DNA from: Cymbomonas tetramitiformis
Lineage: Eukaryota > Chlorophyta > Pyramimonadophyceae > Pyramimonadales > Pyramimonadaceae
Length of the DNA stretch: 64,000 nt
Assembly: GCA_001247695.2 (NCBI GenBank)
Contig: LGRX02035276.1
Coordinates: 5,665-69,664 of the forward strand
Direction: 5' to 3'
Shown here: piece by piece, positions 30,247-53,520 of the stretch
How positions within the stretch are numbered: the stretch's first letter is position 1
How the letters are laid out: each line of letters begins with the position of its first letter
Made by a program: the position numbers and the translations under genes
Notes under the pieces: model-generated
What the model was told of the DNA's origin: nothing
The model's input: the letters and a program-made list of their open reading frames with translations, nothing else
Database searches by the model: none

Positions 30247-30884
30247 TGTACTAGGGTGTATCGCGAGTCAGACGAGAGACAGTCGTGTCTGAATGACGAG
30301 TGACAGCACCAGTGACAGTCACCAGTATGACCGCGAGGTATGACAAGGGTGACTGACAGCTTGTGACTTTTTGAACATCTGCAACCACAGCAGATCAGGT
30401 TGAGAGAATTGGTGGGAAACCATTTTATATTCAAACAGCCACACAGATCTGGAGGGAAACCAGGAGAGTCCCAGATCTTGCCACATCATCAGATCTATGA
30501 CTATTCAGTAATTCAGAGCAGAGATCACTGTATGACTGGCAGCTACAGCCCAAGAGCCAAATGACAAGACCTGTCAGAGGATATGTGAACATGAAGTGAC
30601 TGAGCATGTGACTGTCGAATTCGAATGAGATCTGAGGGAATTCGAGTCGACATGTTACTACTTAAAGAGCTGAGCAAGCTCTCATGGCAGTTTTTGAATT
30701 AGTTACACATTGGCACTGAGCTCTGGTGTCTTGTAACTTCAAACAGTGAAAGTTCACCTAAAGTTAAATGAAATATTCGACAGTATACAAAGCATCCCAA
30801 TATCACCCTATGGTTCCCAAACCATATTCTCTGTAAGTGTTACTTGCACCCTTGTGAGACTGGTTCAGTCCTCACAACCGAACA
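30247..30884 (+). repeat. Gypsy 5' LTR
   Basis: 638 bases, TGTACTAGGG to ACCGAACA, so it has the canonical TG...CA ends. No differences from 44292-44929 were seen, which implies a recent insertion. Confidence 0.95.
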
Positions 30885-30886
30885 AC

Positions 30887-30904
30887 TGGTATCAGCGTGG
30901 TCGT
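30887..30904 (+). promoter_or_regulatory. Primer binding site, initiator-Met tRNA type
   Basis: TGGTATCAGCGTGGTCGT begins two bases after the LTR. The first nine bases are complementary to the 3' end of plant-type initiator methionine tRNA (CTGATACCA). Confidence 0.8.
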
Positions 30905-31524
30905 GGTTCACGACACTCGTTAGTATCTGCGTTCCACAACGCGTTGTACAACACAATTTTAGCCTGAATCTTCCGCCTTTGAGCGAAAGTGTCGTGCCTC
31001 AACCAAAGCACGACTTGTTCTCATAAGAACACTACATATCTGTAAATTATCTCGACTTGTTTCCGCATAATGATGACGACTGCACGCCTTCAACAACTGT
31101 CCCGTACCAGCGTAAAAATTTCTCCAGCGACCTTCCCGCAAACCGGCGAAATTTCAGTTTGAATCGAATTTGTCGCTGGGCAACTTTTGACAGTTCTTGA
31201 ACCAACAGACACCGTACGACAGCACTTGAACTACGAGCTCAGCACCGTATTTTGGTGCCCTTCTTCTCGTGCGGTGATCTTCCTGCGCACTTTGCCCTCT
31301 AGTGGCGAAATCGTACGGAAATTAACGACTGCCGACGCCTCCCCCTTGCTGCCGTTTCCGTGCGCAAGGCTGAGAGCGTGATCGACTGCAGCTGCGTTTT
31401 GTTACGGAAGAATTCTTCTTTTCGGAGCAACCTTTCCGCAGGATTTAATTTTGCCGGCGGTTTGTGTCAGAAATTAATCGTATTCTAGCCGAGATTATCG
31501 CCAAAACGCGTCTGCCGTGCCGTA
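30905..31524 (+). other. Gypsy untranslated leader
   Basis: About 620 bases with no sustained frame into gag. It ends at the gag ATG-ATG-ATG cluster (31525). Confidence 0.6.
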
Positions 31525-34500
31525 ATGATGATGAACTCTTCGACTGACTACGGAGCGCAACAACCCGTCACTGGTGCGGGCGAATCTCCGCTACCGGAGA
31601 CGTCTTTCGGGCCGGCAGTGTCGGAATTAGGCGCCCACTTCGGGGTCCTGCCGTCTGCCGTACGACACACAGCTGGTTTTCCGCCGTCTCCGTACGACTA
31701 CAGCGGACAATTTGCTGCGTACCCTACGAGTGCTGCTTCCGACGCCGGATTAATGATGATGCCGCAGCAGCAGAATTTTCAACAGCAGCAATTTGTGAGC
31801 CAGCCGCAATTGTACCCGCAGACGCCGCAGCAACTTGTGAATCAGTCGCAATGGCAACCGCCACCGTCGCTGCACCTGGAGTTTCAGCAATTCGTGCACC
31901 AGCGGCAACTGGAACGGCAACGGCAACTCCTTTCGCAGCAACAACAACCGCACCAACATCAATTACAGCCGAGAGCGTTATGGCAAACGCAGGTTCCGGG
32001 TGCTTCAGTTGCTGTGAGGCCCATATCACCGGTCCCTTTCGGTGCCTTTACACCGGACCCAATGCCGCCTCCCTCTATACCTGCCTTCCTTGCTGCTTCT
32101 GGTCACTCTGCAGGATCCAGCCCTGAGGAGGGGGGAGGAGAGCCAACGCCAGTGGAACCCTTGCCGCAGGCTTCGCAGCTTAGTGCTGGTTCCTGCACAG
32201 TGTCTCCTGCGGTTTTCTTTGCTGACATTACGCAGGGCGACCCAGCGATTCTGGCTGCGTCATCGACTTCAGGACCTGCGCCTGCCGTTTCTTGCCCAGA
32301 AATGGGGGATTGGGTCCCCACGGCAACCAGGGCCGCCGGAGGCCCTGGCCAAAATTTAGCGACGTCAGAGGCCAGCGATGCAGTTTCTTGCCCAGAAATG
32401 GGGGATTGGGTCCCCATGGCAACCAGGGCCGCCGGAGGCCCTGGCCAATTTTCTGCGACGTCAGTGACAGGGGCCAGCGCAGCGGTGTCTTGCCCGACGA
32501 TGGGGGATCGGGTCCCCATGGCAACAAGGGCCGCCGGAGGCCCTGGCCAATTTTCTGCGACACCAGCGACAGCAGGGGCCAGCGCAGCAATGTCTTGCCC
32601 GACGATGGGGGATCGGGTCCCCATGGCAACAGGGGCCGCCGGAGGCCCTGGCCAAAATTCTGCGACACCAGCGACAGGGGCCAGCGTAGCGGTAGCAACG
32701 CCAGGGGGGGTCCAGCAGCAGCCAGCGGCAGCAGCAGCCAGCGAGGGACGCGCAGAACGAACCAGGAGGTTATCGGAGCGCACAGAGCTGCTGATTCAGC
32801 GCAGTAGAGCCATCGCAGGTGCTGCCTCAGCTGCCCGAGCAGGCGCTGCCCCAACGGCCCACGCAGGCGCTGCCCCAGCAGCCCTCTCAGGCGCTGCCCC
32901 AGCTGCTCAGGCAGGCGCCGTCCCAGCGGCCCACGCAAGCGCCGCCCCAGCCGCCCACGCAGGCGCGGTCCCAGCGATCCACGCAGGCGCAGCCCCAGCG
33001 GCTCACGCAAGCGTCGCCCCAGCTGCTCACGCAGGTGTTGCTCCAGCAGCCCATGCAGGCGCTGCCCCGACTGCGCACGCAGGCGCGGTCCCAACGACCC
33101 ACGCAGGCGCTGTCCCAGCGGCTCACGCAAGCGTCGCCCCAGCTGCTCACGCAGGCGTTGCTCCAGCAGCCCACGCAGGCGCTGCCCCGACTGCGCACGC
33201 AGGCGCGGTCCCAGCGACCCACGCTGACGCAGCCCCAGCGGCTCACGCAAGCGTCGCCCCGGCCGCTCACGCAAGCGTTGCCCCAGCAACCCACGCAGGC
33301 GCTACCCCGACTGCGCACGCAGGCGCGGTCCCAGCGGCCCACGCAGGCGCCGCTCCAGCGGCTCACGCGAGCATCGCCTCAGCCGCTCACTCAAGCGCTG
33401 ACCCAGCAACCTTGGCAAGCGCTGTCCCGGTAGTTCATGTGGGTGTCGTTCCAGCGGTTCACACGAGCGCTGCTCAGCTCAGTTACGTGGATGTGTTTCC
33501 CCAGCTGCCAGCACCCGGTAACCCTCCAGCACCGATGCCAGCGTCAGGTGACCTAGTCAGTCCAAGCTTAGTGACTGCGTTGGAGGCTCATGGATCGCAA
33601 CTGCAAGCAGGAGTGCGTTCGGTCAGACAGCTGAGAGAGACGCATGGGTTACAGCCTGCGGACTTGCCAGTTCACAAACCGGACCCAGCTGCACCCGCCA
33701 GTGGCTCAACCTCAGCACCTGCAGCCAGTACGTCATCCCGATCTTTCACCAGACCCCAGCATAAAGGCCCAGGAAGATTGTCTGAGCAAGATGTTCTCGG
33801 TAGAGTTCATAGAAGGAAAGGGCCAGATCAGAAGGTGAGGATACTGAAGTGGACTGAGGACGACAATTCCCTCTGGAGCGACCACAGTGGGGAGAGCGCT
33901 GGATCTCAGCGGAGCACCCCAGTTCGGCTGCAGTTGATAGCAGCTACCAGGAAGGAGAGAGAGACACTCGTACGTTGGTTTAATAATGAACCACGTACCC
34001 AGCCTGGCCGTTTGCAGTTGTACGCAGCCACGGTGACAAATCTGCAGGACCTGAAGGACCAAGTGAGCTCGAGGGAGTACGCTCGCATGTTGAGACATGG
34101 GGCTCTCAGACACGAAGGAGGGATTCCCATTAAGTTCTTTGCGGGAATTAACTTCGGACGAGCACGACCTCTGAACCGACGAGATGAGCAACCAGCTCAG
34201 AGCAACAGGTTTGCTGTGCTCCCTGAGGTTCCGTCAGATCAGTCAGCATCATTGGTGGCAGCACCCAGCAACAGCCAGCCGGCCCAGCGGGGGTCCCCTG
34301 AGGATGATCCCAGCAGCAGCAGCGGTAGCGAATCGTCGCTCAGTGGGAAATCAGTATCGCCAGAGCGAGAGCGCAGATACCGCAGCAGCAGCAGTGACGA
34401 CAGTGGAGAGCGGAGCAGAGGGCGGCGAAGATTCAAGAAGAAGAAGAAGAAGTCCAAGAAGCCCAAGAAGCGAAGCAAGTTCACTGCTGAGGAGAAGGGG

Positions 34501-36669
34501 AAGGCTAGGGCTGCTGTAGCGGCTGAGGAGAACCACTCCCTGACGCCAGAGATGGCGGTGAAAACCCTGCTGAAGGACAAGGCTCTTAGAGACCAGGCCT
34601 TCGAGTGTCTGCCTGCGGAGAGACAGCGGGCTATAGCCAGTGCGAAGGCCGCAGGGGAAGACGTGCACTGGGAGCAAGAGGGGTGGGAAGCTATGATGGC
34701 TGCCCAGAGGACAGTGCTGCAGGAGAGGAGTACCCCTCACCCGTTGCCAGTGCGTTCCCCCACACCGAAGGACACAGACTTGGTGTGGTACGAACACACC
34801 AAAGCCCTACACCCAACGCTGAGTGAGGATGAGGCATGGCAATTGGCGGTGCATAACCACACTGGAGCCAGCACAGCGCAGACCTCGGGGACAGGAGGAG
34901 GAGTGTCGAGTTCAGTATCCTCAGCACAACCTTCGGGCTCGGAGACAGCAGCCTTGGAGGAGTGGAGATACCCTTCAGTGCCTATCACTGTGGAACAAGG
35001 TATCCGGGACCACGTGAGGGTGCACAACTCGGGGGTGGAAGAAGCTACCGCCATTGCAGCAAAGTATTCCAACTTAGCTGTGAGTTATGGGCACGCCAAG
35101 AACCATAGAGTTCGTGAGACCCTGCCCGGTCCAGTGATGCAGCTCATCAGCGACACAGGTTACCCGGTACCCGAAGGCGCAGGGTGTGTCCGGTGTGGTC
35201 GCTTACTGCGATCGCCCGAGGGCCAGATCCGGGTCACTCCCGGATTAATCTGGGATGTGATGTTGGGCTCCAACCGGACCTGTGTGCAGGTGCCTCTTTG
35301 TCAGGAGTGCACTAAACCCCCCTGGACAGGAGCCTTAGCTCAGCTGCCCATCATTCCCACGCCCGATGTGACAACGCCACAGTCTCAGCCGCGGAGTACT
35401 AGTGATCAGCAGCCCCCGCCAGATCCAGACCCTTCTCCCCACAGAGACGCGCCTGAGCAAGAACGTGGACCTCCGCCTCGCAGAGACGCGTCTGAACAGG
35501 AACGTGAACCTCCACCGCGGTCAGAGACCGATCCAGCGCGGTTGGAGCAGACACGGCTGAAGAAGCTGGAGGCAGAGGACAGACTCCTGAGTACCTTACG
35601 GAAGCTAAGGGAGCGCATCACTACGTACACGTGTCCTCTGGATCAGGCAGCGGGAGAGAAGACATCTGGACATTTGCTGCAACCGTTAAAACTTCTGATG
35701 AGGGAGCTACAAGATTACTTCAAGGAGCCGCAAGTGAGGAGAGCGCTGGCCACGAAGAAGATGAACGAGGACGCCGATGGAAGTGAAGCCACGGTCACCA
35801 CCGTCCCTGAAGAACTGCGTCTGATCATCAGGGATAGGGTGGAAGGATCGGTCCAAGGACTGCTAAACCAGAAGGTTCTAACCAATCAGATGAATACGCT
35901 GGACGATCTGATCGGCACCCTCGCTCGATCTTGCATCAGCGACGCTCACCTTAGCATTCTACCCAGCATGTTGTCACGGTCTCGGCAGGCCTCGGGCAAG
36001 AACGCAGGAAGGAATGCGCGGACCTTCCACCACGCTCTAATGGAAGCGTTTGAGCTGATGGAATCCCTGCATAAGCACGGAGTCACCGGTCCAGTCAACA
36101 GAGCCTCGTTACCCGGCATCTTCCTCAGTGGACTGACACCAGAGTTGCACGCGAGGGTTCATAAGGAGCTGTTGGGCAAGGTAGACTTTCATCAGTCAAC
36201 TGGACCAGCTGGGTGGGAGGCGGAACTACTGCGCAAATACGTGGAGCAGGCTACATTGGAGGAGCGACGGGATCCGGTGGGACTGAAGGCAGCCAGGGAC
36301 CAGTCTCCCTTTCCAGTGGCTGCGCTGGTTGAGTGCCTCGATGAACACGTGGAGCAGTGCTTTGCGCTACCGACAGCGCCGGCAGAAGTGGAGGGCAGGC
36401 AGCTGCCTGGATCGTCTACGTACACTGGTTGCAGGAAATGCAAATCTAAGGAGCACTTGGCGAGGGACTGCCCGCAGCAGCACGACCAGCAGAAGAAAGC
36501 TGCATGGGTAAAGTGCATCTGGGATGAGGCGTTCGAGACCCTGGAGAACTCTGGCGCAAGCCCGGAACTTATGGAGGAAACGTTCGCAGTCATCGCGCAG
36601 GAGAGGGGCTCAGATTTTGGCGAGGGAGAGGCCGCGGGGGCCAGTTCCTCTCCCGGTCGCAAGGCATAG
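31525..36669 (+). CDS. Giant gypsy Gag with alanine-rich repeats and zinc knuckle
   Basis: 1714 residues, three to five times the usual gypsy Gag. Order: Gln-rich N-terminus (about residues 75-160); four tandem repeats built on SCPEMGDWVP and ATRAAGGPGQ (about 253-390); an Ala-His-Pro repeat domain of the form AHAGAAPA (about 433-650); a Ser/Lys-rich basic region (KKKKKKSKKPKKR, about 970-985); a Pro-rich acidic linker (about 1290-1330); a helical capsid-like region (about 1350-1600); and a classical zinc knuckle at about 1636 (CRKCKSKEHLARDC, C-x2-C-x4-H-x4-C). The repeat-rich N-terminal half has no recognised enzymatic domain. Pol overlaps the 3' end in the -1 frame. Confidence 0.85.
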   Translation: MMMNSSTDYGAQQPVTGAGESPLPETSFGPAVSELGAHFGVLPSAVRHTAGFPPSPYDYSGQFAAYPTSAASDAGLMMMPQQQNFQQQQFVSQPQLYPQTPQQLVNQSQWQPPPSLHLEFQQFVHQRQLERQRQLLSQQQQPHQHQLQPRALWQTQVPGASVAVRPISPVPFGAFTPDPMPPPSIPAFLAASGHSAGSSPEEGGGEPTPVEPLPQASQLSAGSCTVSPAVFFADITQGDPAILAASSTSGPAPAVSCPEMGDWVPTATRAAGGPGQNLATSEASDAVSCPEMGDWVPMATRAAGGPGQFSATSVTGASAAVSCPTMGDRVPMATRAAGGPGQFSATPATAGASAAMSCPTMGDRVPMATGAAGGPGQNSATPATGASVAVATPGGVQQQPAAAAASEGRAERTRRLSERTELLIQRSRAIAGAASAARAGAAPTAHAGAAPAALSGAAPAAQAGAVPAAHASAAPAAHAGAVPAIHAGAAPAAHASVAPAAHAGVAPAAHAGAAPTAHAGAVPTTHAGAVPAAHASVAPAAHAGVAPAAHAGAAPTAHAGAVPATHADAAPAAHASVAPAAHASVAPATHAGATPTAHAGAVPAAHAGAAPAAHASIASAAHSSADPATLASAVPVVHVGVVPAVHTSAAQLSYVDVFPQLPAPGNPPAPMPASGDLVSPSLVTALEAHGSQLQAGVRSVRQLRETHGLQPADLPVHKPDPAAPASGSTSAPAASTSSRSFTRPQHKGPGRLSEQDVLGRVHRRKGPDQKVRILKWTEDDNSLWSDHSGESAGSQRSTPVRLQLIAATRKERETLVRWFNNEPRTQPGRLQLYAATVTNLQDLKDQVSSREYARMLRHGALRHEGGIPIKFFAGINFGRARPLNRRDEQPAQSNRFAVLPEVPSDQSASLVAAPSNSQPAQRGSPEDDPSSSSGSESSLSGKSVSPERERRYRSSSSDDSGERSRGRRRFKKKKKKSKKPKKRSKFTAEEKGKARAAVAAEENHSLTPEMAVKTLLKDKALRDQAFECLPAERQRAIASAKAAGEDVHWEQEGWEAMMAAQRTVLQERSTPHPLPVRSPTPKDTDLVWYEHTKALHPTLSEDEAWQLAVHNHTGASTAQTSGTGGGVSSSVSSAQPSGSETAALEEWRYPSVPITVEQGIRDHVRVHNSGVEEATAIAAKYSNLAVSYGHAKNHRVRETLPGPVMQLISDTGYPVPEGAGCVRCGRLLRSPEGQIRVTPGLIWDVMLGSNRTCVQVPLCQECTKPPWTGALAQLPIIPTPDVTTPQSQPRSTSDQQPPPDPDPSPHRDAPEQERGPPPRRDASEQEREPPPRSETDPARLEQTRLKKLEAEDRLLSTLRKLRERITTYTCPLDQAAGEKTSGHLLQPLKLLMRELQDYFKEPQVRRALATKKMNEDADGSEATVTTVPEELRLIIRDRVEGSVQGLLNQKVLTNQMNTLDDLIGTLARSCISDAHLSILPSMLSRSRQASGKNAGRNARTFHHALMEAFELMESLHKHGVTGPVNRASLPGIFLSGLTPELHARVHKELLGKVDFHQSTGPAGWEAELLRKYVEQATLEERRDPVGLKAARDQSPFPVAALVECLDEHVEQCFALPTAPAEVEGRQLPGSSTYTGCRKCKSKEHLARDCPQQHDQQKKAAWVKCIWDEAFETLENSGASPELMEETFAVIAQERGSDFGEGEAAGASSSPGRKA
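32278..33430 (+). repeat. Tandem repeats within gypsy gag
   Basis: Two kinds: four copies of a roughly 95-110-base unit beginning TCTTGCCC (32290-32700), and 15-30-base units of CACGCAGGCGC type (32821-33430). Because the units are multiples of three, the frame is kept. Long open frames on both strands here are by-products of the repeats. Confidence 0.85.
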
Positions 36670-36749
36670 GTCCCGGAGCCAGCAGGGGGAGTACTCCGCC
36701 CCTTGCTGAGGCCGACAGGAGCGGGACCAAGCCTCTGGAGGAGAGGTCT

Positions 36750-39700
36750 GTGAGGGGGCGACACAGCCAGCCCTACCGGTGGAACACCCATTTCAGAGAA
36801 GACCACCGGATGAGGCATGGCCCGGGACCAGCCCAAAAGGCAACCGAGAAGCTGAGGCGAGCTGTGAGGTGGTTGAAGCGGACTCACCCGGTTACTGTGG
36901 TGGCTCCAAGCGAGATGGAGCCAGAAGTGGCACCAGCGCAGGCATCCACCCCAACAGAGGTACAAATCAGGTTCCCTTTGTTCGGGCAAGGAAGTCAGGG
37001 ACACCCGTGCACAAAAGGTGTGTACCAGCGCGCCTTGCAGCCATCAGGTGCCAGAAGGGTGAGGTTCAGGGAGGAGGCAGCGCCCCGGCAGCTCTTTGGA
37101 CGTGCGCTGCGACGACGACTGGACCGTGCCAAGCCGCCGCCGCTGTCGCGAGCACAACAGCGAGTGCAACGTGACAAACCAGCAGCGTGGGAGGCAGCCA
37201 GGACACTGACGAGCAGGCGGCGGGAAGCAGAGGTGCATCAGCACAGAGTCAGGAGTGCCATGGTACAGGTGAAGGGCCGCATAGAGCACCTGAGGAAGAT
37301 GATGAAGGTGAGCAAGGAGACGGCGACCGCCAGACCAGCACCCTGGCCAGATGATCCAGCGCCGGAAGACTCCATCACCAGGTCTGCCCGCTGGACTGCC
37401 CTGATAGCGGAGGCAGGCACTTACCACCTACCCGACGACAACTCTGACGAAGAACTGAACCCGCGGGAAGTGGAGCCAGGTTTGCACAAACTGGCCAGCA
37501 TCAGGCCGGACATAGGCGTGGACGCGGGAGCGGGGCGTTGGGGAGAGTGGCTGGACGAACATGTGCTAGCTGCCATGGATGCGTCCGGGCCCACTCTCAT
37601 GATCTTTTGGGCGTGGATTGGCAAGGTGAGAGTGAAGGTCCTCATCGATACCGGGGCCTCCTCCAGCTTCACATCCCTAGAGACTGTGAAGAAGCTCAAG
37701 CTTCAACCATCAGTCCATGAGAAACCAATGCGGGTGCAGGTTGCAGATGGCACAGTCTACGACGCCAACTCTTGCATTCGGCCCAAGCTCACGGCGGAGA
37801 CGCGGAAGGGAAGTTATGCCAAGCAGGTAACTCTGCGAGTGATGCCCTTATCCTTGGGAGTGGACGTGGTGCTGGGGGGTGACTGGTTACGAGCTCAGCG
37901 GCGGATCACCTTTGACTACGCACAGTATGGGAGTGTGCGGTTTGGCCATGGGTCACAGAAGGTAGTCATTGCGGGATGCAATCCAGGGTCGTCATCTACA
38001 GGGTCTGGGCAGGCCATGGGACTGGTAGAGGCACAGCTTATCAGTACTAAGCAAGCCAGGAAGGACCTGCGAGCCTTGAAGAATAGCGGCGAGGAGGCGT
38101 ACCTGATGTATCTGGCTCCAGATGGCACATTTAAAATGGAGGCCACCGACGACCCCAACTCTCCCTTAGAGGCCTCTGCAGCCCTATCAGAGTCATCTTC
38201 ATCCTCATCGTCGGAAGCAGAGGGTGACAACGCTAGGCAAAGGGGGGGGGAAGTTACCTCTGACGAAGAAGGCTACGACAGCGACAGCACAGTAGCAAGC
38301 ATAGCCACCCTAATCTCCGACAGCAGTTCGTCTGAATCTGAACAAGATGCAACAGAGCAGGAGGACTGGGCTCAGGAGCAGGTGTGTGCTCTGCGACCGG
38401 CGACGTGCCCCACATCAGCGCAACCCGCTGTGCGAGACTGGGGACCTTACCCCACAAGGGCCAGATGGGAGGCATTCCAGATGCTTCCACGAGAGCGCAG
38501 GGAGCAGGCTGCACAGCACCACGCGGAGGAATTGGAACCTGAGTGGGAGGAGGAGGCATACTGTCTGTGGAAAACAGGGCAGGCTCTGCGTCTGCAGCAG
38601 GAGCAACGGAGGAGCAGAGGGGTGAACCACAGGAGATCGCGCAGAGTTAGCGAGCCAGTACTGGCAGCACCTATAGCAGCTGAGGCAGGGCAAAGCAAAG
38701 ATGGGTATAGCTGTTTCAGGAAAGAGGCACCAGCTGCTGCAGCGACACCTAGTGAAGAGCAGAGCAGCGGCGCGGATGGCAAGGTCAAGCAGCACGAAGG
38801 CGAGACCAAGGAGGCTAAGCAGGATGAGGAGGACGCAGAGGTACCACAATGGATCCTGGACGAGCTGGTGAAGCTGAAGCAGTGGTACCAGGACGTGGTG
38901 GGCATGGAGCTCCCTAAGGGCGTCGTGGACCGCGACCACAAATCGCCGCTGCGCGTAGACCCCGAGTACCGTGATGGCGCACGGCACAAGAGGTGCTACA
39001 AGTTGTCCATGGAGGAGTTACGACAACTTCGACTGCAACTGGACGAGCTCTTGGCAAAGGGATACATCCGTCCCTCGTCTTCACCTTGGGGCAGTCCAGT
39101 CCTGATGGTGCCCAAGCCCTCCAACCCCAAGGAGCTGCGACTGGTGATCGACTATCGCCAGATCAACGAGATCACTGTGAAGGACCGTTACCCTCTCCCT
39201 GACGTGCAGTCCCTCATCGATGACCTCCAGGGAGCGACTATCTTCTCCACCGCGGACGCTCTGTGGGGATTCTGGCAGGTGCCCATGGAGGAGGACGCTA
39301 TCGAGAAGACAGCGATGACCACGCCGTTCGGAGCTTATGAGTGGCTGGTTATGCCCATGGGGTTGTCAAACAGTCCTTCTTGCTGGCAGCGTATGATGCA
39401 GAGCTACCTAGGACATCTCCCATTCGTAAGGGTGTTCGTGGACGATATCATGATCTTCAGTAAGAATCCAACTGAACACCTCGATCATTTGAAGCAGGTG
39501 CTGGAGGTCTGCCGTCAAAACAAAGTCCGGCTGAAGGAATCAAAACTGCGGTGTTTCAAGCGCTCGGTACGGTTCCTCGGGCATGTAATTGATCGAGAAG
39601 GATGCCGACCCCAGCAGGACAAGATCGCCGCAGTACGGGATTGGCCCAAGCTGGAGACGGTCAAGCACGTGAGACAGTTCCTGGGACTAGCTGGGTTCTA

Positions 39701-41906
39701 CAGGCGGTACATCCAAGGATTCTCTGACCTGGCGCACCCGCTCACCAAGCTGACCAAGAGCTTAGTGCCCTGGGAGTGGGGCCCAGAGCAGGAACGAGCA
39801 TTCGAACGGTTGAAGCACGCGTTGACCACAGCCCCTACGTTGATCCTGCCAGATCAGAAGGCAGCCCACAACGGCACCAGTCCATTCGTCGTACAGACGG
39901 ACGCCAGTGCGGTGGCACTGGCTGGCGTGCTGATGCAGGATCTAGGCAAGGGCCTGCAACCCATAGCCTTCGAGAGCAAGCAGTTCTCGTCTGCTGAGCA
40001 GAACTACCACGCAGGTGAGCGTGAGCTAGCCGCCATCCACCACTGCACTACGCAGACTTGGAGACATTACCTGATATTCACGGAGTTCAGGTTAATGGGG
40101 GATCATGCTCCTCTAAAGTGGTTATTCGCACCTGGACGGGAGCTCAGCCGACGCCAGGCTAGGTGGTACGAGGACCTGGTGGAGGTGGGCGTGCATGCGA
40201 TGGAGCATGTGCCAGGGCGCACGCTGGTGGTGCCGGACGCGGCCTCTCGCCGACCGGACTACGTGCAGACGACAGCGCGAGACGGGCTTAAGGAGGCGGG
40301 GTATGTGGACCCGAGCACCGACCAGCCTGTATCCGCGGAAGAGGGCCGAAGAGCAGCGGGAGCTAAGGGGAACCCAGCAGAAGTAACCAAAGCTAAGGCT
40401 GAGGTGAACGCAGCGGTAAAGGAGAAGAAGATGGGGAAGGAGGACCCTAGCTCTCCGCTGGACGCGGGGTTCAGTTCAGCAGACGAGGAGGACGAGGAGT
40501 ACCCTCCAGTGAACCCTCCTGTGGTGACTGGGAAGCTGACGCAGCTTAATGGACTGTGGTGGGCGGAGACCCCCGACCTGTGGCGCGACGCCATGGACAC
40601 AGTGGCCACGATGGCGGCAGTCTCTGCCCTTGCGGGCGTAACTACTAGAGCGGCAGCAGCAGAGCAATCAGCAACAGGTGATGACCCAGCGTCTCCCTTG
40701 GATGCAGAAGCCGTTCTGTCAGAGACACCCCCAGCACAACCGCCTGCAACAGTAGCTCAGAAGCCAGTAGCGGAGCAGCAGCAGCCATCAGCAGCAGTGC
40801 AGCAACCAGCAGCACAACCGCCAGCGACAGCAGCAGAGCAGCAGCAAGCAAGCCCAAGGATCCGACCTGGAGAACCGCTGGTGGACAAGCAGGATTGGAA
40901 GTTGATCTCCTCGGAGTTCGCTAGGCTGCAGAGCAAGTACTCTCGAGCACTGGGAGGACCATTCCAGGTGGATGCGTGCTGTGACGCTATGGGTCAGAAC
41001 CGACAGGTGAGCACATTCTGGACTGATTGCTTGAACGAGCAGTGGAGGGGTCGTATCGTCTGGTGCAACCCCCCCTTTTCAGACCCCAACGTGAGCATTG
41101 AGGACATTCTGCGACACTATGCATCTGAAGCAAAGCAGGACCCGTGCCACACAGCCGCCTTGTTCTTGTTGCCCGACTTCCCTCAGGCGAGTTGGCGACC
41201 GTTGCTACGTGAATTTGGCCTGGAGATCGTAGAAGTCATCCCAAGGGTGAACGAGCATGGTGAGCCCAACAGACTGTTTACCTCACCTGGAGAGGAGAGA
41301 GGTCACCGCTCGGCTCTGCAGGAACTGCCAGTCCCATGGCCAGTGCTAGTAGTGATAGCCAGGCCGCAGAAGCCATCCAGCAAGCTGGCCCCACGCGAGA
41401 GACCCACAGCGCAACCAGCAGTCACGCTCTCCGGAGCAGCAGCAAAGGTCAGAGACAAGTCGGGAACGGTGGAGCCAGGGGTGTTCTTGCGAGCGCTGAG
41501 AGCTGAGCACAGACGGAGCGAATATCTCAGGACCCTGAAGCAGGAGCTGCTAAATACCCAGCATCATCGCACAGAGCATTTCCGGTTGGTAAGCGACATT
41601 ATCTGGAGAGTGGCTGAAGGGCGCTATCAGGTGGTGCTGGCACCGGACTCGCCCTTGCGGGAGCTAGTGTTGAGAGAAGCTCACGAGGCACCATCCGCAG
41701 GCCACACCGGCAGGGACAAGACGCTGGAACGGGTCCGAAGACGTTTCTGGTGGCCGCGAATGGACCTAGATATAGCAGAATGGGTAAAGACGTGCGTGAC
41801 GTGCCAGCAGACCCAGCCGCGACAAGGGTATCCCATGGGGCTGTTGCAACCGCATCGAGTGCCAAGCAGGCTCTGGGAGGTATCGTTGTCAGCATCGATT
41901 TCGTAA
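36750..41906 (+). CDS. Gypsy Pol: protease, reverse transcriptase, RNase H, Dam-like domain, integrase zinc domain
   Basis: The frame is open upstream of 36750 into gag (no stop from 36603), in the -1 frame relative to gag, so a -1 shift or reinitiation is likely; no ATG fits the start. Aspartic protease DTGA at residue 300; reverse transcriptase DYRQINEI, WGFWQVPM, FVDD at 896; RNase H FVVQTDASAVA at about 1046 and DHAPLKWL. Residues about 1369-1560 form a Dam-like domain: FQVDACCDAMGQNRQ, then a Trp-containing segment, then VWCNPPFSD with NPPF at 1440. An integrase zinc domain follows (HTGRDKTLERVRRRFWWPR, CVTCQQ). The frame stops at 41906, just before the integrase core, which continues in another frame. 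Acidic, low-complexity linkers flank the Dam-like part. Confidence 0.92.
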   Translation: MRGRHSQPYRWNTHFREDHRMRHGPGPAQKATEKLRRAVRWLKRTHPVTVVAPSEMEPEVAPAQASTPTEVQIRFPLFGQGSQGHPCTKGVYQRALQPSGARRVRFREEAAPRQLFGRALRRRLDRAKPPPLSRAQQRVQRDKPAAWEAARTLTSRRREAEVHQHRVRSAMVQVKGRIEHLRKMMKVSKETATARPAPWPDDPAPEDSITRSARWTALIAEAGTYHLPDDNSDEELNPREVEPGLHKLASIRPDIGVDAGAGRWGEWLDEHVLAAMDASGPTLMIFWAWIGKVRVKVLIDTGASSSFTSLETVKKLKLQPSVHEKPMRVQVADGTVYDANSCIRPKLTAETRKGSYAKQVTLRVMPLSLGVDVVLGGDWLRAQRRITFDYAQYGSVRFGHGSQKVVIAGCNPGSSSTGSGQAMGLVEAQLISTKQARKDLRALKNSGEEAYLMYLAPDGTFKMEATDDPNSPLEASAALSESSSSSSSEAEGDNARQRGGEVTSDEEGYDSDSTVASIATLISDSSSSESEQDATEQEDWAQEQVCALRPATCPTSAQPAVRDWGPYPTRARWEAFQMLPRERREQAAQHHAEELEPEWEEEAYCLWKTGQALRLQQEQRRSRGVNHRRSRRVSEPVLAAPIAAEAGQSKDGYSCFRKEAPAAAATPSEEQSSGADGKVKQHEGETKEAKQDEEDAEVPQWILDELVKLKQWYQDVVGMELPKGVVDRDHKSPLRVDPEYRDGARHKRCYKLSMEELRQLRLQLDELLAKGYIRPSSSPWGSPVLMVPKPSNPKELRLVIDYRQINEITVKDRYPLPDVQSLIDDLQGATIFSTADALWGFWQVPMEEDAIEKTAMTTPFGAYEWLVMPMGLSNSPSCWQRMMQSYLGHLPFVRVFVDDIMIFSKNPTEHLDHLKQVLEVCRQNKVRLKESKLRCFKRSVRFLGHVIDREGCRPQQDKIAAVRDWPKLETVKHVRQFLGLAGFYRRYIQGFSDLAHPLTKLTKSLVPWEWGPEQERAFERLKHALTTAPTLILPDQKAAHNGTSPFVVQTDASAVALAGVLMQDLGKGLQPIAFESKQFSSAEQNYHAGERELAAIHHCTTQTWRHYLIFTEFRLMGDHAPLKWLFAPGRELSRRQARWYEDLVEVGVHAMEHVPGRTLVVPDAASRRPDYVQTTARDGLKEAGYVDPSTDQPVSAEEGRRAAGAKGNPAEVTKAKAEVNAAVKEKKMGKEDPSSPLDAGFSSADEEDEEYPPVNPPVVTGKLTQLNGLWWAETPDLWRDAMDTVATMAAVSALAGVTTRAAAAEQSATGDDPASPLDAEAVLSETPPAQPPATVAQKPVAEQQQPSAAVQQPAAQPPATAAEQQQASPRIRPGEPLVDKQDWKLISSEFARLQSKYSRALGGPFQVDACCDAMGQNRQVSTFWTDCLNEQWRGRIVWCNPPFSDPNVSIEDILRHYASEAKQDPCHTAALFLLPDFPQASWRPLLREFGLEIVEVIPRVNEHGEPNRLFTSPGEERGHRSALQELPVPWPVLVVIARPQKPSSKLAPRERPTAQPAVTLSGAAAKVRDKSGTVEPGVFLRALRAEHRRSEYLRTLKQELLNTQHHRTEHFRLVSDIIWRVAEGRYQVVLAPDSPLRELVLREAHEAPSAGHTGRDKTLERVRRRFWWPRMDLDIAEWVKTCVTCQQTQPRQGYPMGLLQPHRVPSRLWEVSLSASIS
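40850..41400 (+). other. Dam-like (DNA N6-adenine methyltransferase type) domain within gypsy Pol
   Basis: About 183 residues between RNase H and integrase. It matches the layout of the phage Dam family and of the 'MT' domain of DIRS retrotransposons (established for DIRS): an N-terminal D-A-C-C-D segment in place of the F-D-L-D-x-A-A motif, W..W..I.WCNPPFSD as the catalytic NPP(F/Y) loop, then a strand-helix region with LFLLPDFPQASW, a FTSPG segment and a final WPVLVVIARP strand. The Asn-Pro-Pro-Phe residues are intact. Whether it binds S-adenosylmethionine or only DNA cannot be told from sequence. Confidence 0.65.
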
Positions 41907-43999
41907 CCGGGCTTCCGATGACTCAGCGAGGAGTAAACGCCTTCACCACCTTCACCTGCAAGCTGAGCAAAATGGTACACGTGGTGCCAATGACCTACAA
42001 CGACAGCTCTGCAGAAGTAGTGGTAAGATTGTTCATGGACGCAGTATGGCGATTGCACGGAGCTCCAATGAAGATAGTGTGCGACCGAGACCCCCGCTTT
42101 CGCGACGCCATGACTCAGGAGTTCATGCGACTGATGGGCGTCAAGGTAGCTAGCACCACTCCCTATCACCCTCAGAGCGATGGGCAAGCGGAACGCAGCA
42201 ACCACACCGTGGAGCGTATGCTGCGCTGCTACGTGGCTGAGAACCAGGAGGACTGGGACCTCTGGGTGACACCTGTGGAGTACGCGATCAATGACTCCAC
42301 GTCAGCAGCGACTGGATTCTCTCCTTTTGAGTTGGTGTACGGACACGCTCCCGCAACTCAGCTGGACTTCTTCATGGACGCAGCCTTAGAAGGTGGGTCA
42401 AGACGAAGAAAAGGTGGGCGAGTAGCGGCAGATAAGAGAGGAACTGCGCACGAGCTGGCCAAGCAGTTCGCGCGGCAACTACAGGCAGCGCGGGTGAACC
42501 TGCAGATGGCCCAGCAGCGCATGATGGAGCAGTTCGACGCACGACACCGGCTACAGCACATTAAGGTGAATGATCAAGTATGGGTGGATGGTCAGCACCT
42601 GACTCTGCCTGGAGATCGGGGGATGAAGCCGAAGCTGCGCAAGCTCAGGCACGGTCCCTTACGTGTAGTAGAATGTCCGTACAGCGACAGGCAGCAAGAG
42701 CTGCCAGAGCAGGACCGTGGAGCCCCGTCAGCGTACAGGTTAGAGCTACCCGTGCATTGGAAGGTGCACGACGTGTTCACAGCGGATCGGCTTACCCCAG
42801 TTCAGTCGGGAGCCAAGCACTTCGTGAGCAGGCGGGAGGAAGTGGCACCACCACCAGTCTTGGTAGAGGGTCAAAGGGAGCGTGAGGTGGAACGCATCAT
42901 CAGTACTCGCTTCAGGAAGTTAGGTGGGAAGGCTGGCGGGACAGTGCAGGAGTGGCTAACCAAATGGAAAGGGCTGCCGCATAGTCACAGCCAGTGGCGA
43001 ACCCGAGAGGACTTGGAAGGGCGAGGGGGCAGGCTAGAACCACTGCGAGTCTTCGAAGCTGAGGAGGAAAGGCTGAAGAAAGCTCCAGAGAAAAGGCGAA
43101 GGGAGACTCACAAGGGCCAGGAGGAGCAGCGGGCACAGTTGATGGCCATGAGACCTCCCACCCCAACAGTCCGCAGCAGTAGCCAAAGCCGGGCCTATCA
43201 GCCCCACCTCTCGAGAGTGCAGCACCCTGTCAGGATTTTGGTGTTGTTCTGCGGTACCGGTTCAGTGGAGCAGCAGTTCCAACGTCAGTTTAGGGACTGC
43301 GAGGTGGTAACAGTGGACATCCTACCCAAGTGGCAAGCCACGTGCACGGAGGACATCCTTCACTGGAACTACAAGCTCTACCCGCGGCATCATTTCGACG
43401 TCATCTGGGCCAGTCCCCCCTGCAAGGAGTACAGCAAGGCGAAGACACTAGGAGCTCCAGATCTGAAGCTGGCGGACAGGCGCGTGCGACGTACCAGGGA
43501 GATCATTGAGTTTTACGATCCTGCGTATTTCTTCATAGAGAACCCAGCTGGCGACACGCTGCGAGGATTGCACACGCGCGCAGTAATGAAAGGTCTACCA
43601 GAGCCACTGTTGACCACCTATTGTAAGTATGGCGCACCGTACATGAAGCCAACTCACATATGGACAAATGCGGCACCCTCAGTACCTTTGTTACAGTGCA
43701 CCCACACGACTCCCTGTCCTGCGCGAGCAATGCTAGGAAGGCACGAGAACACGTCCCAAGGGGGCATCTCCTCGGCTAACACCCGCGGTATGGGTTCAGC
43801 CCAAGCAGTATATGCAATACCTCGTGCGCTGCTGTACCACCTGTTTTGCGAACTGAAGCTGAACGAGCGCATGAAGGAGGAGAGCGCACTCGCGGTAATG
43901 AACCTCATCTCGACGCTGACAGCAAGGACTGACATGTGCGAGTCTCAAGATACCGAGGCTGGTCAACCACGGGGCGCAATGGCCGCGGAAGACCCGTGA
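41750..43999 (+). CDS. Gypsy integrase core, chromodomain and cytosine-C5 methyltransferase fusion
   Basis: The coding part homologous to integrase starts near 41880. The catalytic triad SIDFVTG (D, 41897), CDRDPRF (D, 42083) and DGQAERSN (E, 42191) shows the D-D-35-E spacing. A chromodomain follows (REVERIISTRFRKLGG...WLTKWKGLPHSHSQWRTRE, about 42870-43015). Then comes a C5 methyltransferase: motif I LFCGTGSVEQQF (43244), motif IV SPPCKEYSK with catalytic Cys codon 43421-43423, motif VI ENPAG (43538), then TYCKYGAPYMKPTHIWTN and a YAIPRALLYHLF close. A separate target-recognition domain is not apparent. The frame is -1 relative to the preceding Pol; an ATG-started independent product is unlikely, so either a frameshift mutation or programmed shift joins them. 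Confidence 0.92.
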   Translation: MAANGPRYSRMGKDVRDVPADPAATRVSHGAVATASSAKQALGGIVVSIDFVTGLPMTQRGVNAFTTFTCKLSKMVHVVPMTYNDSSAEVVVRLFMDAVWRLHGAPMKIVCDRDPRFRDAMTQEFMRLMGVKVASTTPYHPQSDGQAERSNHTVERMLRCYVAENQEDWDLWVTPVEYAINDSTSAATGFSPFELVYGHAPATQLDFFMDAALEGGSRRRKGGRVAADKRGTAHELAKQFARQLQAARVNLQMAQQRMMEQFDARHRLQHIKVNDQVWVDGQHLTLPGDRGMKPKLRKLRHGPLRVVECPYSDRQQELPEQDRGAPSAYRLELPVHWKVHDVFTADRLTPVQSGAKHFVSRREEVAPPPVLVEGQREREVERIISTRFRKLGGKAGGTVQEWLTKWKGLPHSHSQWRTREDLEGRGGRLEPLRVFEAEEERLKKAPEKRRRETHKGQEEQRAQLMAMRPPTPTVRSSSQSRAYQPHLSRVQHPVRILVLFCGTGSVEQQFQRQFRDCEVVTVDILPKWQATCTEDILHWNYKLYPRHHFDVIWASPPCKEYSKAKTLGAPDLKLADRRVRRTREIIEFYDPAYFFIENPAGDTLRGLHTRAVMKGLPEPLLTTYCKYGAPYMKPTHIWTNAAPSVPLLQCTHTTPCPARAMLGRHENTSQGGISSANTRGMGSAQAVYAIPRALLYHLFCELKLNERMKEESALAVMNLISTLTARTDMCESQDTEAGQPRGAMAAEDP
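41870..41906 (+). other. Frame change inside the integrase coding region
   Basis: The Pol frame reads SRLWEVSLSASIS then stops; the other frame reads GIVVSIDFVTGLP, which is the integrase core. The homologous reading therefore moves by -1 (or +2) within about 20 bases. I see no canonical slippery heptamer. It could be a mutation, a sequencing error, or a deliberate split of Pol. Confidence 0.7.
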
Positions 44000-44082
44000 T
44001 CTGGTAGTGCTGAGGTTGCCAAACCTGATGAGCGTTGGCAGCGTGAGACGGTGAAGCGCCTTGGCGAACCCGGATTGCGGAA

Positions 44083-44178
44083 GGGGACCCAGACCCAAGG
44101 ACTGGGGGGCACGGACCCAAGAACCGTAAGGGGGACCCGGACCCGAGGACTGGGGGGCACGGACCCGAGAACCGAGGG
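44083..44178 (+). repeat. Two 48-base repeats in the gypsy 3' region
   Basis: Units starting GGGGACCC at 44083 and 44131. They contain GGGCACGGACCCAAGAACCG (44107-44126), a 20-mer also present at 55501-55520, downstream of the methyltransferase in the truncated second element. Confidence 0.85.
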
Positions 44179-44277
44179 CTTAGCAGCCCGATCTTGTCGC
44201 AAAGTGCATGCTAACCTTCCCTGACCATGTACATAAGAGCACGCAGGACAGCCTAGCGAGGACGTAGGCGCGCCGCA

Positions 44278-44291
44278 AAGGGGGGGAGAGT
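44278..44291 (+). promoter_or_regulatory. Polypurine tract
   Basis: AAAGGGGGGGAGAG then T, immediately before the 3' LTR; the second element has the equivalent AAGGGGGGAGAGT at 55649-55661. Confidence 0.85.
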
Positions 44292-44929
44292 TGTACTAGG
44301 GTGTATCGCGAGTCAGACGAGAGACAGTCGTGTCTGAATGACGAGTGACAGCACCAGTGACAGTCACCAGTATGACCGCGAGGTATGACAAGGGTGACTG
44401 ACAGCTTGTGACTTTTTGAACATCTGCAACCACAGCAGATCAGGTTGAGAGAATTGGTGGGAAACCATTTTATATTCAAACAGCCACACAGATCTGGAGG
44501 GAAACCAGGAGAGTCCCAGATCTTGCCACATCATCAGATCTATGACTATTCAGTAATTCAGAGCAGAGATCACTGTATGACTGGCAGCTACAGCCCAAGA
44601 GCCAAATGACAAGACCTGTCAGAGGATATGTGAACATGAAGTGACTGAGCATGTGACTGTCGAATTCGAATGAGATCTGAGGGAATTCGAGTCGACATGT
44701 TACTACTTAAAGAGCTGAGCAAGCTCTCATGGCAGTTTTTGAATTAGTTACACATTGGCACTGAGCTCTGGTGTCTTGTAACTTCAAACAGTGAAAGTTC
44801 ACCTAAAGTTAAATGAAATATTCGACAGTATACAAAGCATCCCAATATCACCCTATGGTTCCCAAACCATATTCTCTGTAAGTGTTACTTGCACCCTTGT
44901 GAGACTGGTTCAGTCCTCACAACCGAACA
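44292..44929 (+). repeat. Gypsy 3' LTR
   Basis: 638 bases matching 30247-30884, followed by CATGG, the second target copy. Confidence 0.95.
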
Positions 44930-47900
44930 CATGGTCTGCCCAGTTGTTGTCTACAGCGATAGGCTGTCCTGGGGAATTCTCCGCCACCGGAGACTCCTCG
45001 CTGTGAGGTAGCCCCTTTCTGCTCGCCTCTGCCACCGCCAACAAGAGCTCCACAGCTCTGCGGTCCATAGCCAAGCCCAAAATACTTGCCGACTCCTCGT
45101 CACTCAGGCCATCGGCCATGCGTAACTCGCTCGCGCTGTAGCCCATGGCTCGCGATTTCTCATCAAGGTTCACCTCTCGGACTTCCTCCTCTAACGCCTT
45201 CACCAAATAGTAGGGGTGATTAGGATCTCCCCCTGACAGCCTTGCAAAAGTGTTTCCTCGTCCAACCTTCACACTCACGTCATCGCGGGCCTCCGCGACT
45301 CTTGTTCTGGTGCGTCGGGCTTCGGTTTCGGTTGCCTCGGTCAAGGTGAACTGCTCCCAGCTGTCCACGTGACTCCGGTACAGGCAACCCTCCGTGTCAG
45401 GTTGTGCCTTCGCGCACTGCGCGTAACAATAATCGCAATAGCATTGTCGGTCCCGCTTTAAGCCCACCAACAACCCCACCCCTGCACGCACCGAGTGTAA
45501 GGCCAACGTCCGGTCACACCCAGGTCCAGAGATGTCCACGTCCTTGCCGTCAACCAGAAAGAACAATCTTTGCCCGAACTGAACACCCCTGTTGCGAGCG
45601 CTATCCTTCGGCTTTTGCAACCTTTCCATGCAGAACTCGTACAAGCTTTTGGCGTCCAGTATTTTACAATGCCATTTGTCGGTTGTGGACATCACCGCCA
45701 AGCTCGCCTCATGCTTCACCGCTACTCCCATCGCGTTTTGCTCACCTCGTGCATGTGACGTCCCAAAGAAGTTGCGCTGTGTCGGGATGCCAAGCCCTCG
45801 GGGCCACTCCGCCGACTCTTCCCGCCCGCTCTCCACCACATCGGCAAATGCGGTCGCGCATTTGTTTTGTGCCGCACTACCATCCGCCCACTCATGCATG
45901 AATTTGGGGAGAGGTATACCTCTCTTCACGAAGTACTCACTGACGATAAGTTTCCTCATATGTTGGATACCTCGGTGCGAGTGCGGCAAGGTGTCGCTAA
46001 TGAGGTAGATCAGGTCCTTCACTATTATTGGGTTGGCCTCGGTGGAAGTCTGACCGCGTCCACGGAACCAACCGCGTGCTGCCATAACACACAACACAGC
46101 AGCGTTGCTTGCTTCACTATCCAGTGCAACGACTGAATCGCCCTGGGAATGTTCAGAGCGTGGTTCTCGCTGAAGTCAAACAATATGAGGCAGTGCCCCA
46201 AAGGCAAGCTGGCCTTGCACTTGTTGAACATTGTCATGGAGTGCGTGGCCATGAAACAGTGGTAGGCATACGGCTTCAAAAACCGACACGGTTGGGCAGT
46301 AGGCACACCGACCAACTTCTCCAACCTCCAACTCCCGTCCGCCGCTTTCCGCACAAACGTGCCCGAACACACACAATTTGGGGACTCCCCTGGGGCGTGG
46401 CCAAGGAGCAGAGCTTGCAGTTTTGCAAGCAGCTCACCAGCAGTGGTCGTCTTTTGGACGAACTGCACCCGGTGCTTGTTCTTCCCGTCCTCGTCCACTC
46501 CGATATGAACGTTCTCGTAGGTGTGCCAGTCCAGCGTGGCAGTGTTGGAAACCGCCGCCGGACACAACGACCAGTTTTGCAGCCCCCCGCACCGTTTGCA
46601 AGAACCCTCCAAGCAGGGCATGTCGTGGTGGTCCTCGTGCTCTCCGTTCGACCGCTGTCTTGGACACAGCAGCGATGCCGTGAAACCGGAGGTTGACCGT
46701 CCCACCTCCACTCGACCACACTTGAAGTCCGGGAAAGCAGGAAATGGTTTACGGGCGGACAGCCGTGCCCGAAGGCCTCCAACGCGAGGGCAACACGACG
46801 CGTCCGTGCACTTGCAGCCGGAGTGGCCCACCTCCTGGAAACGGGCATACGCCTCCACCACCAACCGCATATCCTCGTGGTACCTGCAGCAGCAGGAAAT
46901 GGTGTCCCTTCGGGTGAGTCGTTGCACTTGCCTCGGCTTCCGAGTCTCAAAAGCTCGGAGTTCGATCTTTTCGGCGGGTTCCTTCTTCTTGAACTTACGG
47001 AACACCTCCAACTGTGTCATTTCCCACCACTGCTTCGACACCTTCTCCACGCTTCCATCAATATGCCGCAGCTGGATCACGTCCCGTTTACAGGTGGACA
47101 CCCGACTGATCCCAGCACTCAGCCAGAAGGCTTGGATATCTTGTGGGCCAGCTCCGCGCTTATAGCACGGTTGGCCATGTGCAGGTTTTCCAGGACCAAC
47201 CCTGCCAGAAGACCGGCATTAAGCCGTTGCGCTGTCCCAAGGGCAGCTCCCAACAGCAAGTTGCGGTGCCCAACGAGTTCATCCTTCACCAGCACTTTCA
47301 CATTTATCGCCAAGATTCTTGCAACAGCACCCTCAACACCCTCCACGTCTCTGCCAAATACCATCGCTGCGCCCGCCATGCGCGTGGCAGCGTTCTGCCT
47401 GGAACCATAGCCAGCTAGAGCGGCGAACGAAGCCCGCAAGCTCGACACGATCGTTCCTCCTACGCGATCCTCCTCTGACAGAAATCTTAGCCGCACAGCT
47501 TCTTTCTCTTCCGCGGGTAAGGTGCTCACAAAGTTCGAGAGCGCCCCACCAATAAGATGCGGCTTGTTCATGAAAACCTCCTTGAGCTTGTCGTTCCAGT
47601 GTGCTTTACTTCCATCAGGCACCGGGCAACCCACCGCTGAGGCTCCTGCGGAGGCTGCTGTGGCGCCTAAGGGACCCATCGTCGATTTTCCCCGTGCTTG
47701 AGGCGCAAAGACCTCCACCGCGTCCTTGCCCAAGTCTAAACGCTTCCTAGAGCGAGCTTCCCTCCTTCGCGCATTCTGTTCAAGGCGCCTTTTCTTAACG
47801 GTACTGGTAGGTGTGGGCGCATTCCTCGCATTCCTCCCAACCCCACCTGCATCTGCCTGCAGCACGCTAGGATCTCTGCTCGGTTTATCCAGTTAAAACA

Positions 47901-52747: not shown

Positions 52748-53520
52748 GCTATCGAATGCCTTGATAGGGAGTGTCCAAGGGGTCCAAATGGGCGTTTGCG
52801 GGGGGTAAATCGATCGATTTCAATGTCGTTTCCGCGTGAGATTCTAGTATAGGAGTTAATAATGGATAACATGAGTATAGGGGGGAGCATGCATAACTTG
52901 CAATGAAGCCCTGAGGGCCTGAAAGGCCTATTCAGGGCCTGGAAAGTCATTTTCAGGGCCTGAAAATGGTTATCAGGGCCTGAAAATGGTTATCAGGGCC
53001 TGAAAATGGTTTTCAGGGCCTGAAAATGGTTTTCAGGACCTGAAAATGGTTTTCAGGGCCTTAAAACTCGTTTTCAGGGTCTGGAAACGAGTTTTCAGGG
53101 CATGAAAAGGCATTTTTAGGCCTTATGTGAATTTTCAGGGCTTGGAACACTGTAAAAGTTCAGGCCCTGAACTTTTGTTTCAGGGGGCAAGATGGGGACA
53201 TGAGAATATAATTCTAAACTTTATATAACACGAAAAGTGAATAAAAAGTTCAGGCCCTGAAAAAAAAGTTCAGGGGCATCTTAAGAGTGTGAATTCCAAA
53301 TTTTCAGGCCCTGAACTTTTGTGTAAAACTTATATTATCCATGAGGCTTTTTCTAAGGTGTATAACTAGCCTAGTATAAAACAAGTTCAGACCCTGAAAG
53401 TGATTTTCAGGGCCTGAAAATCATTTTCAGGCCCTGAAAATGGTTTTCAGGGCCTGAAAAAAAAGTTCAGGGGGCAATTTTTCAGGGGGCAAAAAAAAGT
53501 TCAGGGGGCAATCGTAAGTA
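52746..53520. repeat. Palindromic CAGGGCCTGAAAA repeat array replacing part of the integrase
   Basis: TTTTCAGGGCCTGAAAA, a 17-base near-palindrome with one unpaired central base, recurs roughly twenty times in exact or decayed form. From about 52935 to 53060 it forms a 20-base tandem array (CAGGGCCTGAAAATGGTTAT); later copies appear as TTCAGGCCCTGAA in both orientations and as TTCAGGGGGCAA near the 3' end. Integrase coding stops before it and resumes after it, with about 200 residues missing. Confidence 0.8.

Follow-up and report, generated by a model that had tools for sequence, protein, structure and literature searches.

A Ty3/gypsy-type retrotransposon of the green alga Cymbomonas tetramitiformis encodes a chromodomain and two methyltransferase-type domains

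We analyzed a 64,000-nucleotide stretch of the Cymbomonas tetramitiformis genome (GenBank assembly GCA_001247695.2, contig LGRX02035276.1, positions 5,665 to 69,664 of the forward strand; hereafter the window) and found in it a long terminal repeat (LTR) retrotransposon of Ty3/gypsy type whose Pol region encodes a chromodomain together with a Dam-like (N6-adenine methyltransferase type) domain and a C5 cytosine methyltransferase domain. The presence of a chromatin reader and two methyltransferase-type domains in one such element has good support from profile matches, structure prediction, conserved motifs, selection and recurrence in relatives. Beyond this, we propose a Ty3/gypsy-type family with this equipment in which both enzymes act on the element’s own DNA, a reading to which we assign a probability of roughly 0.53 and whose activity part we infer from sequence. 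Retrotransposon cytosine methylases and Dam-like domains were known before only separately, in different element classes and with unclear purpose. With an LTR family carrying both, kept over long divergence, present as near-identical copies in a sequenced alga and accompanied by a second lineage with other domain orders, the role of these domains becomes testable.

The element occupies 30247–44929. Its two 638-bp LTRs are identical at 638/638 positions and have TG...CA ends, and a CATGG target-site duplication (TSD) brackets the element on both sides. A first-pass annotation made from the sequence alone had described a young, structurally complete element at 36750–43999. Youth is borne out by the identical LTRs and the TSD, whereas the extent was drawn too short, missing among other parts a 1714-amino-acid (aa) gag-like open reading frame (ORF), and the copy is no longer intact, since Pol switches frame inside the integrase, between its zinc-binding part and its core (ORFs 36750–41906 and 41750–43999). 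Among 60 genome copies scored, the frame length at this break is shared with C3244 (793 aa) and near that of C3655 (784 aa). The features of the element, including reverse transcriptase (RT), are as follows.

30247–30884, plus strand: 5′ LTR, 638 bp, TG...CA, 100% identical to 44292–44929, CATGG before it
30885–30910, plus strand: probable primer binding site, the TGGTATCAG... stretch directly after the 5′ LTR, which we take to be of the initiator-Met type
31525–36669, plus strand: gag-like ORF, 1714 aa, with a CCHC knuckle and long Ala/Pro-rich tandem repeats (PF00098, E = 5.8e-4, 20.3 bits against a cut-off of 20.8)
36750–41906, plus strand: pol part 1 with protease, RT, RNase H, Dam-like domain and integrase zinc-binding domain; first ATG at 36810
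37617–37904, plus strand: aspartic protease (PF13975, 1.3e-8)
39108–40181, plus strand: RT and RNase H (PF00078, 1.5e-32; PF17917, 4.8e-27)
40875–41384, plus strand: Dam-like domain, NPPF at 41067–41078
41646–41822, plus strand: integrase zinc-binding domain, H2C2 (PF17921, 6.7e-23)
41750–43999, plus strand: pol part 2, in another frame, with integrase core, chromodomain and C5 methyltransferase (ORF, Pfam)
42884–43021, plus strand: chromodomain (PF00385, 4.6e-8, 33.3 bits against a cut-off of 25.1)
43217–43861, plus strand: C5 cytosine methyltransferase domain, about 215 aa, with FCGTGS from 43247, PPC at 43415–43423 and ENP at 43538–43546
44271–44291, plus strand: polypurine tract directly before the 3′ LTR
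44292–44929, plus strand: 3′ LTR, 638 bp, CATGG after it

By Pfam, the order in Pol is protease, RT, RNase H, Dam-like domain, integrase zinc-binding domain, integrase core, chromodomain and C5 methyltransferase. The TG..CA LTRs, the short target duplication and the protease–RT–RNase H–integrase order are those of Ty3/gypsy elements. The chromodomain is fused to the integrase end, after rve, as in chromoviruses, which carry it at the integrase C terminus. No tyrosine recombinase was matched in Pol by Pfam and both H2C2 and rve were found, which sets the element apart from the DIRS class. Within the gag ORF, 32262–33545 consists of in-frame tandem repeats with units of 24 and about 96–105 bp.

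The first-pass annotation had placed an NPPF-bearing Dam-like domain after RNase H and before the integrase, and a C5 enzyme with motifs I, IV and VI behind a chromodomain; both assignments were upheld by profile searches and by confident predicted folds with methyltransferase matches. The Dam-like domain matches PF05869 at E = 2.1e-6 (28.0 bits, just below the curated cut-off of 28.1) and PHROG 111 at 5.3e-10, and P0003, one of the related Pol proteins introduced below, passes the PF05869 cut-off with 41.2 bits. NCBIfam phage_N6A_met reaches 16.5 bits on the window, far below its cut-off of 97. The predicted structure is a class I methyltransferase fold (predicted local distance difference test score 87) for which adenine-N6 methyltransferases head the VIA list, the best structural match being an RNA cap adenosine methyltransferase; the substrate may, for this reason, be DNA or RNA. 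Phage relatives share 26–28% identity (among 20 of 179 records listed) and are annotated as DNA methyltransferases, several of them as DNA adenine methyltransferases. Sequence searches against solved structures gave no match below E 0.1, and IMG/VR yielded no confirmed relative of the C5 domain and one weak Dam match (L001). NPP[FY] is present in 24 of 30 aligned Dam rows (29 from group A, defined below, plus P0031).

The C5 domain scores 21.8 bits against PF00145 (1.5e-4), just below the curated cut-off of 22, with stronger matches to PHROG 363 (1.8e-11) and PHROG 757 (2.6e-11); the relatives P0016 (28.1 bits) and P0022 (24.7 bits) lie above the PF00145 cut-off. Motifs I, IV (PPC) and VI (ENP) are all present, and the GTGS, PPC and ENP columns are invariant in 24 aligned rows. 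Of 33 proteins, all have PPC but P0004, which ends upstream of the motif. The Cp-933R prophage enzyme, DNMT1, HaeIII, DNMT3 and HhaI head the match lists of the confidently predicted fold. DNMT3 is the best fold match; the sequence comparison covered phage relatives, which share 26–35% identity.

Three homolog searches returned 47 Pol proteins (P0001–P0047), with P0001, P0002 and P0004 coming from the Dam query; PF05869 stands in the precomputed database Pfam list for 20 of the 47. All 28 proteins of group A (P0001–P0028), the nearest to the window element among those found, have a C5 domain as well as a Dam-like domain between RNase H and integrase, and P0001–P0003 repeat the window’s domain order in a single frame. 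The C5 part is incomplete in the records P0004 and P0021, although a genome copy of the P0021 type shows it complete, and in P0013 the C5 domain stands at the N terminus. A five-seed Dam profile, with seeds taken from among the 28, scored at least 67 bits on every group-A protein and at most 2.3 on reversed sequences; these seed-only and reversed-sequence controls led us to reject chance motif matches as an explanation for Dam. Group B (P0030–P0047), a more distant set of gypsy proteins, has the C5 domain in 18/18 proteins and Dam in at least 7/18, a count for which Pfam was run on nine and the other nine were judged by the group-A profile and the precomputed list. Here the domains precede RT, as Dam–C5–RT in P0034, P0036, P0038 and P0039 and as C5–Dam–RT in P0031, P0044 and P0047; PF05869 scores are 23.5–33.5 bits, three of the seven over the cut-off, and NPP[FW] is found in seven Dam rows.

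An RT tree restricted to methylase-bearing elements, with 27 group-A rows including the window (P0006 and P0021 were left out, their RT stretch being too short) and 18 group-B rows, separates the two groups with a Shimodaira–Hasegawa-like approximate likelihood ratio support of 100 and sets P0029 apart. Across 26 group-A elements, RT, Dam and C5 distances correlate (r = 0.86–0.88); both domains have been inherited jointly with RT. In the Dam tree the sequences of A, of B and of phages fall apart from one another, but this tree is unrooted with long branches, and we do not claim independent Dam capture in the two groups.

Some of these proteins carry further domains. P0029, a gypsy Pol that has C5 but lacks Dam, matches NUDIX (4.6e-6) and, weakly, Tudor (0.003). 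Residues 553–623 of P0031, a group-B gypsy Pol, match the histone-hairpin-binding (SLBP) RNA-binding domain at 6.4e-23. A PHD finger, a histone reader other than the chromodomain, lies between Dam and integrase in P0012 (residues 1137–1181, 1.6e-11) and appears in the precomputed list for P0015.

To place the element among its genomic copies, we scanned the host genome (851.7 Mb, 25,745 contigs; C. tetramitiformis is a prasinophyte of the Pyramimonadales). All 60 places scored, out of 16,221 first-look candidates, were 95–100% identical to the 3′ ORF, and 25 of them sit in open frames 2400 aa or more in length, one of which has an internal TAG. Of twelve genomic stretches fetched, ten had been picked for their long frames, and these ten carry protease, RT, the NPPF motif, integrase and the C5 motifs in a single frame; the two that lack a long frame, L024 and L028, do not. 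The P0021 record (CYMTET_48393), also from C. tetramitiformis, matches the genome over residues 968–2130 at 99–100% (rounded) in 18/18 places scored.

Selection was assessed by Nei–Gojobori counts of nonsynonymous to synonymous rates (dN/dS) between the window and 19 loci, which represent 16 distinct places (L010 = L028, L013 = L017, L016 = L018) and form pairs that share ancestry. Pooled dN/dS is 0.03 for the C5 domain (204 synonymous and 21 nonsynonymous changes), which is clearly under strong purifying selection. Against L024, the most divergent partner in these domains, Dam has a ratio of 0.030 (2 nonsynonymous against 18 synonymous changes, p = 1.3e-10) and C5 one of 0.058 (p = 5.7e-16), while the linker between RNase H and Dam gives a nonsignificant 0.42 over 70 codons. 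Evidence for constraint on Dam thus comes mainly from the L024 pair, where it is strong, and from conservation among distant relatives. Separately, L021–L023 are mosaic relative to the window, with 92.5–94.4% identity in RT–RNase H, 99.6% in Dam and 98.5–98.8% in C5, which points to recombination between subfamilies.

The window holds two further elements with related content.

51386–55398, plus strand: a further element of this kind, now decayed; its RT is split over several frames, and it has an integrase, a chromodomain and a C5 domain in which ENP reads ETP
11992–12498, plus strand: Dam-like domain found with the five-seed profile, NPPF at about 12205, in a Ty1/copia Pol ORF (10858–16098) upstream of the integrase

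The RNase H of the second element is 99% identical to that of P0008; no Dam match was obtained over 51386–55398 at an E limit of 0.5, and 20-bp repeats occupy the expected Dam place. The copia element has LTR-like repeats at 7975–8233 and 16639–16897 (99.6% identical). The five-seed profile gives its Dam-like domain 36.6 bits (E = 1.9e-10); this domain is nearest to P0015 (31%) and has no methylase match in Pfam (E 0.01) or PHROGs. In a comparison with 2000 shuffles it reached 42.1 bits against a best shuffled score of 6.2, and a chance match was discarded on this basis. Elsewhere, three minus-strand ORFs of 395, 358 and 248 aa without significant Pfam match lie just downstream of the 3′ LTR (44910–47865), and 62641–63258 is a tandem array of a 184-bp unit containing GGGTTTGGGTTCGAACCC-like stretches.

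How might the domains work together? The Dam-like domain would travel in company with RT/RNase H and act on the cDNA, and the C5 domain would accompany the integrase–chromodomain part and act on cDNA and/or target chromatin; because the former adjoins RT/RNase H and the latter integrase and chromodomain, both could travel with the cDNA to the insertion site. New copies would then arrive with host-like marks, a form of self-methylation as proposed for other retrotransposon DNMTs, and the likely benefit would be that marked copies are not recognized as foreign and determine the state of their own chromatin. According to the available part of PMC12695648, N6-methyladenine (6mA) in the species studied occurs near start sites and signals permissive chromatin, and prasinophyte 5-methylcytosine (5mC) lies in gene bodies; we conjecture that both marks could therefore give a copy the look of a host gene. 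A bolder and doubtful extension would be that a kit for writing two marks, with a histone reader, was assembled more than once by retrotransposons of a green alga and of other hosts, in varied domain orders and with Dam also in copia, and that copies delivered with 6mA and 5mC carry a self-issued chromatin identity that makes them look like host genes and keeps them expressible, which would be more than plain methylation of a transposon. The first-pass annotation had likewise suggested an element that reads chromatin and places adenine and cytosine marks on its own copies or where it lands; the reader and both methyltransferase-type domains are indeed encoded, while the writing stays a proposal.

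Several results weigh against action of both enzymes on the element’s DNA. The counts of co-occurrence are conditional on the C5 and Dam queries, with Dam in 26/30 and 7/15 proteins of two C5 searches. Protein and small-molecule methyltransferases stand beside PCIF1 among the top Foldseek matches of the Dam-like domain. One alternative, which we consider unlikely, is that this domain methylates RNA, at an adenosine near the cap or inside the element’s genomic RNA, leaving the C5 enzyme alone to act on DNA; PF05869, PHROG 111 and the annotation of the listed phage relatives speak for DNA, and the shared fold with the cap enzyme does not fix the substrate. The Dam-like domain might also be a catalytically idle binding module or spacer, with only the C5 enzyme at work. 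NPP[FY] is lost in six of 29 group-A Dam rows (P0007, P0016, P0018, P0020, P0022 and P0028), and these proteins, otherwise with open Pol, keep PPC and ENP in C5, the former motif being nearly universal as noted; adenine methylation, if it occurs, would therefore be dispensable in some lineages. Pooled over 18 loci, dN/dS for Dam is 0.20 (26 synonymous, 18 nonsynonymous), no lower than the 0.16 of the linker, and some near-identical copies show only nonsynonymous Dam changes (two each in L021–L023, four in L026). A relaxed linker, which we had entertained as a contrast to Dam, holds for the L024 pair only and was dropped, and L024 itself is not an intact copy. The likeness of the pooled ratios adds some weight to an idle domain and takes some from two enzymes acting on the element’s DNA. 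Retention of the motif in the other 23 group-A rows and in its NPP[FW] form in group B, together with the low Dam ratio against L024, speaks against an idle domain, which we consider rather improbable.

Base composition bears on a different alternative, that new copies are methylated to be silenced and the host spared. Observed/expected CpG is 0.41 in the LTR, 0.75 in the element’s interior and 1.03 in the rest of the window, with TpG and CpA in excess; values as low as the LTR’s occur in two of 481 flanking intervals, both over the second element’s repeat. Such depletion is consistent with past 5mC on transposons and does not identify the methylating enzyme. A search of the copia element turned up no C5 domain, and yet its CpG is depleted as well (0.63); this counts against self-restraint and does not point to self-methylation in particular, and CpG depletion was accordingly dropped as proof of self-methylation. 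GATC occurs six times in the LTR, compared with 0–5 for the other 15 palindromic 4-mers, a number too small for use, and the available text of PMC12695648 gives transposons without 6mA enrichment in the surveyed eukaryotes. High copy number, many open frames and the CpG depletion with its TpG/CpA excess would suit self-restraint, an option mentioned in the accessible portion of de Mendoza et al. (PMC5890265), but the family was recently active, as identical LTRs and many 99–100% copies indicate, and we regard the idea with skepticism. Chance similarity, misassembly or nesting of elements might be suspected from window Pfam scores just under the cut-offs and from the frame break, which lies close to where the two ORFs meet. 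The whole structure is enclosed by a single pair of identical LTRs and a single TSD, its domain order recurs without a frame change in P0001–P0003 and in the ten of 12 fetched stretches that had been picked for long frames, and the folds are confident; we thus reject misassembly and nesting, including the possibility, raised at the outset, that the two domains lie in different elements, and this whole class of explanation is exceedingly improbable.

Among known systems, KnitGypsy-Dnmt3 of Klebsormidium nitens (PMC5890265) is similar in being a gypsy element with a cytosine methyltransferase with conserved motifs in Pol, for which the consulted sections report Ka/Ks under 0.2. They describe a Dnmt3 enzyme and a DIRS-like repeat arrangement and do not mention Dam, whereas the window element has ordinary LTRs with a TSD, a short C5 domain behind a chromodomain and a Dam-like domain. 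The likeness to charophyte gypsy C5 enzymes drawn by the first-pass annotation is therefore loose, the domain here being of about 215 residues with phage relatives. SymbioDIRS-Dnmt3 and SymbioLINE-Dnmt of Symbiodinium are likewise retrotransposon-encoded C5 methyltransferases, but they belong to DIRS elements and long interspersed nuclear elements (LINEs), and the same sections mention no Dam and C5 pair. There, SymbioDIRS DNMTs are reported to methylate CG de novo in yeast, with cDNA methylation proposed (de Mendoza et al. 2018, PMC5890265); in yeast no methylation resulted from the DNMTs of KnitGypsy and SymbioLINE, a result its authors call inconclusive and a further point against our proposal. 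DNMT3 in LTR copia and DIRS elements is mentioned in an excerpt of PMC12344493.

DIRS1-like retrotransposons, compared by their description in part of PMC3266345, resemble the window element in carrying a methyltransferase domain directly after RT–RNase H in Pol; they differ by a tyrosine recombinase and inverted repeats where we find a DDE-type integrase, LTRs, a chromodomain and C5. Chromodomain gypsy elements of Ectocarpus lineages (PMC12477816) share the chromodomain at the integrase C terminus, and the available passages mention no gypsy methyltransferase. Ectocarpus Sola1, in the same passages, is likewise a mobile element of an alga and encodes a methylase of prokaryotic type that is predicted to produce N4C or N6A, but it is a DNA transposon with the ParB-methyltransferase protein as a separate gene. 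The phage enzymes, such as Dam of Klebsiella phage pK8 and the short C5 of Bacillus phage BM15, are sequence relatives at 26–35% identity but stand-alone genes; the blocks in common are GP[FY]..DA..D..N, DCL..W and NPP[FY] for Dam and C.YG...KPT..WTN for C5. In keeping with the first-pass annotation, which named no described Ty3/gypsy element with the pair, our searches of Creative Commons (CC)-licensed papers found no LTR element with both enzymes, an earlier mention elsewhere being possible. The parts are thus of known kinds, and what is new within the literature searched is the combination of Dam and C5, the fact that it occurs in each of two gypsy groups, and the presence of Dam in a copia element.
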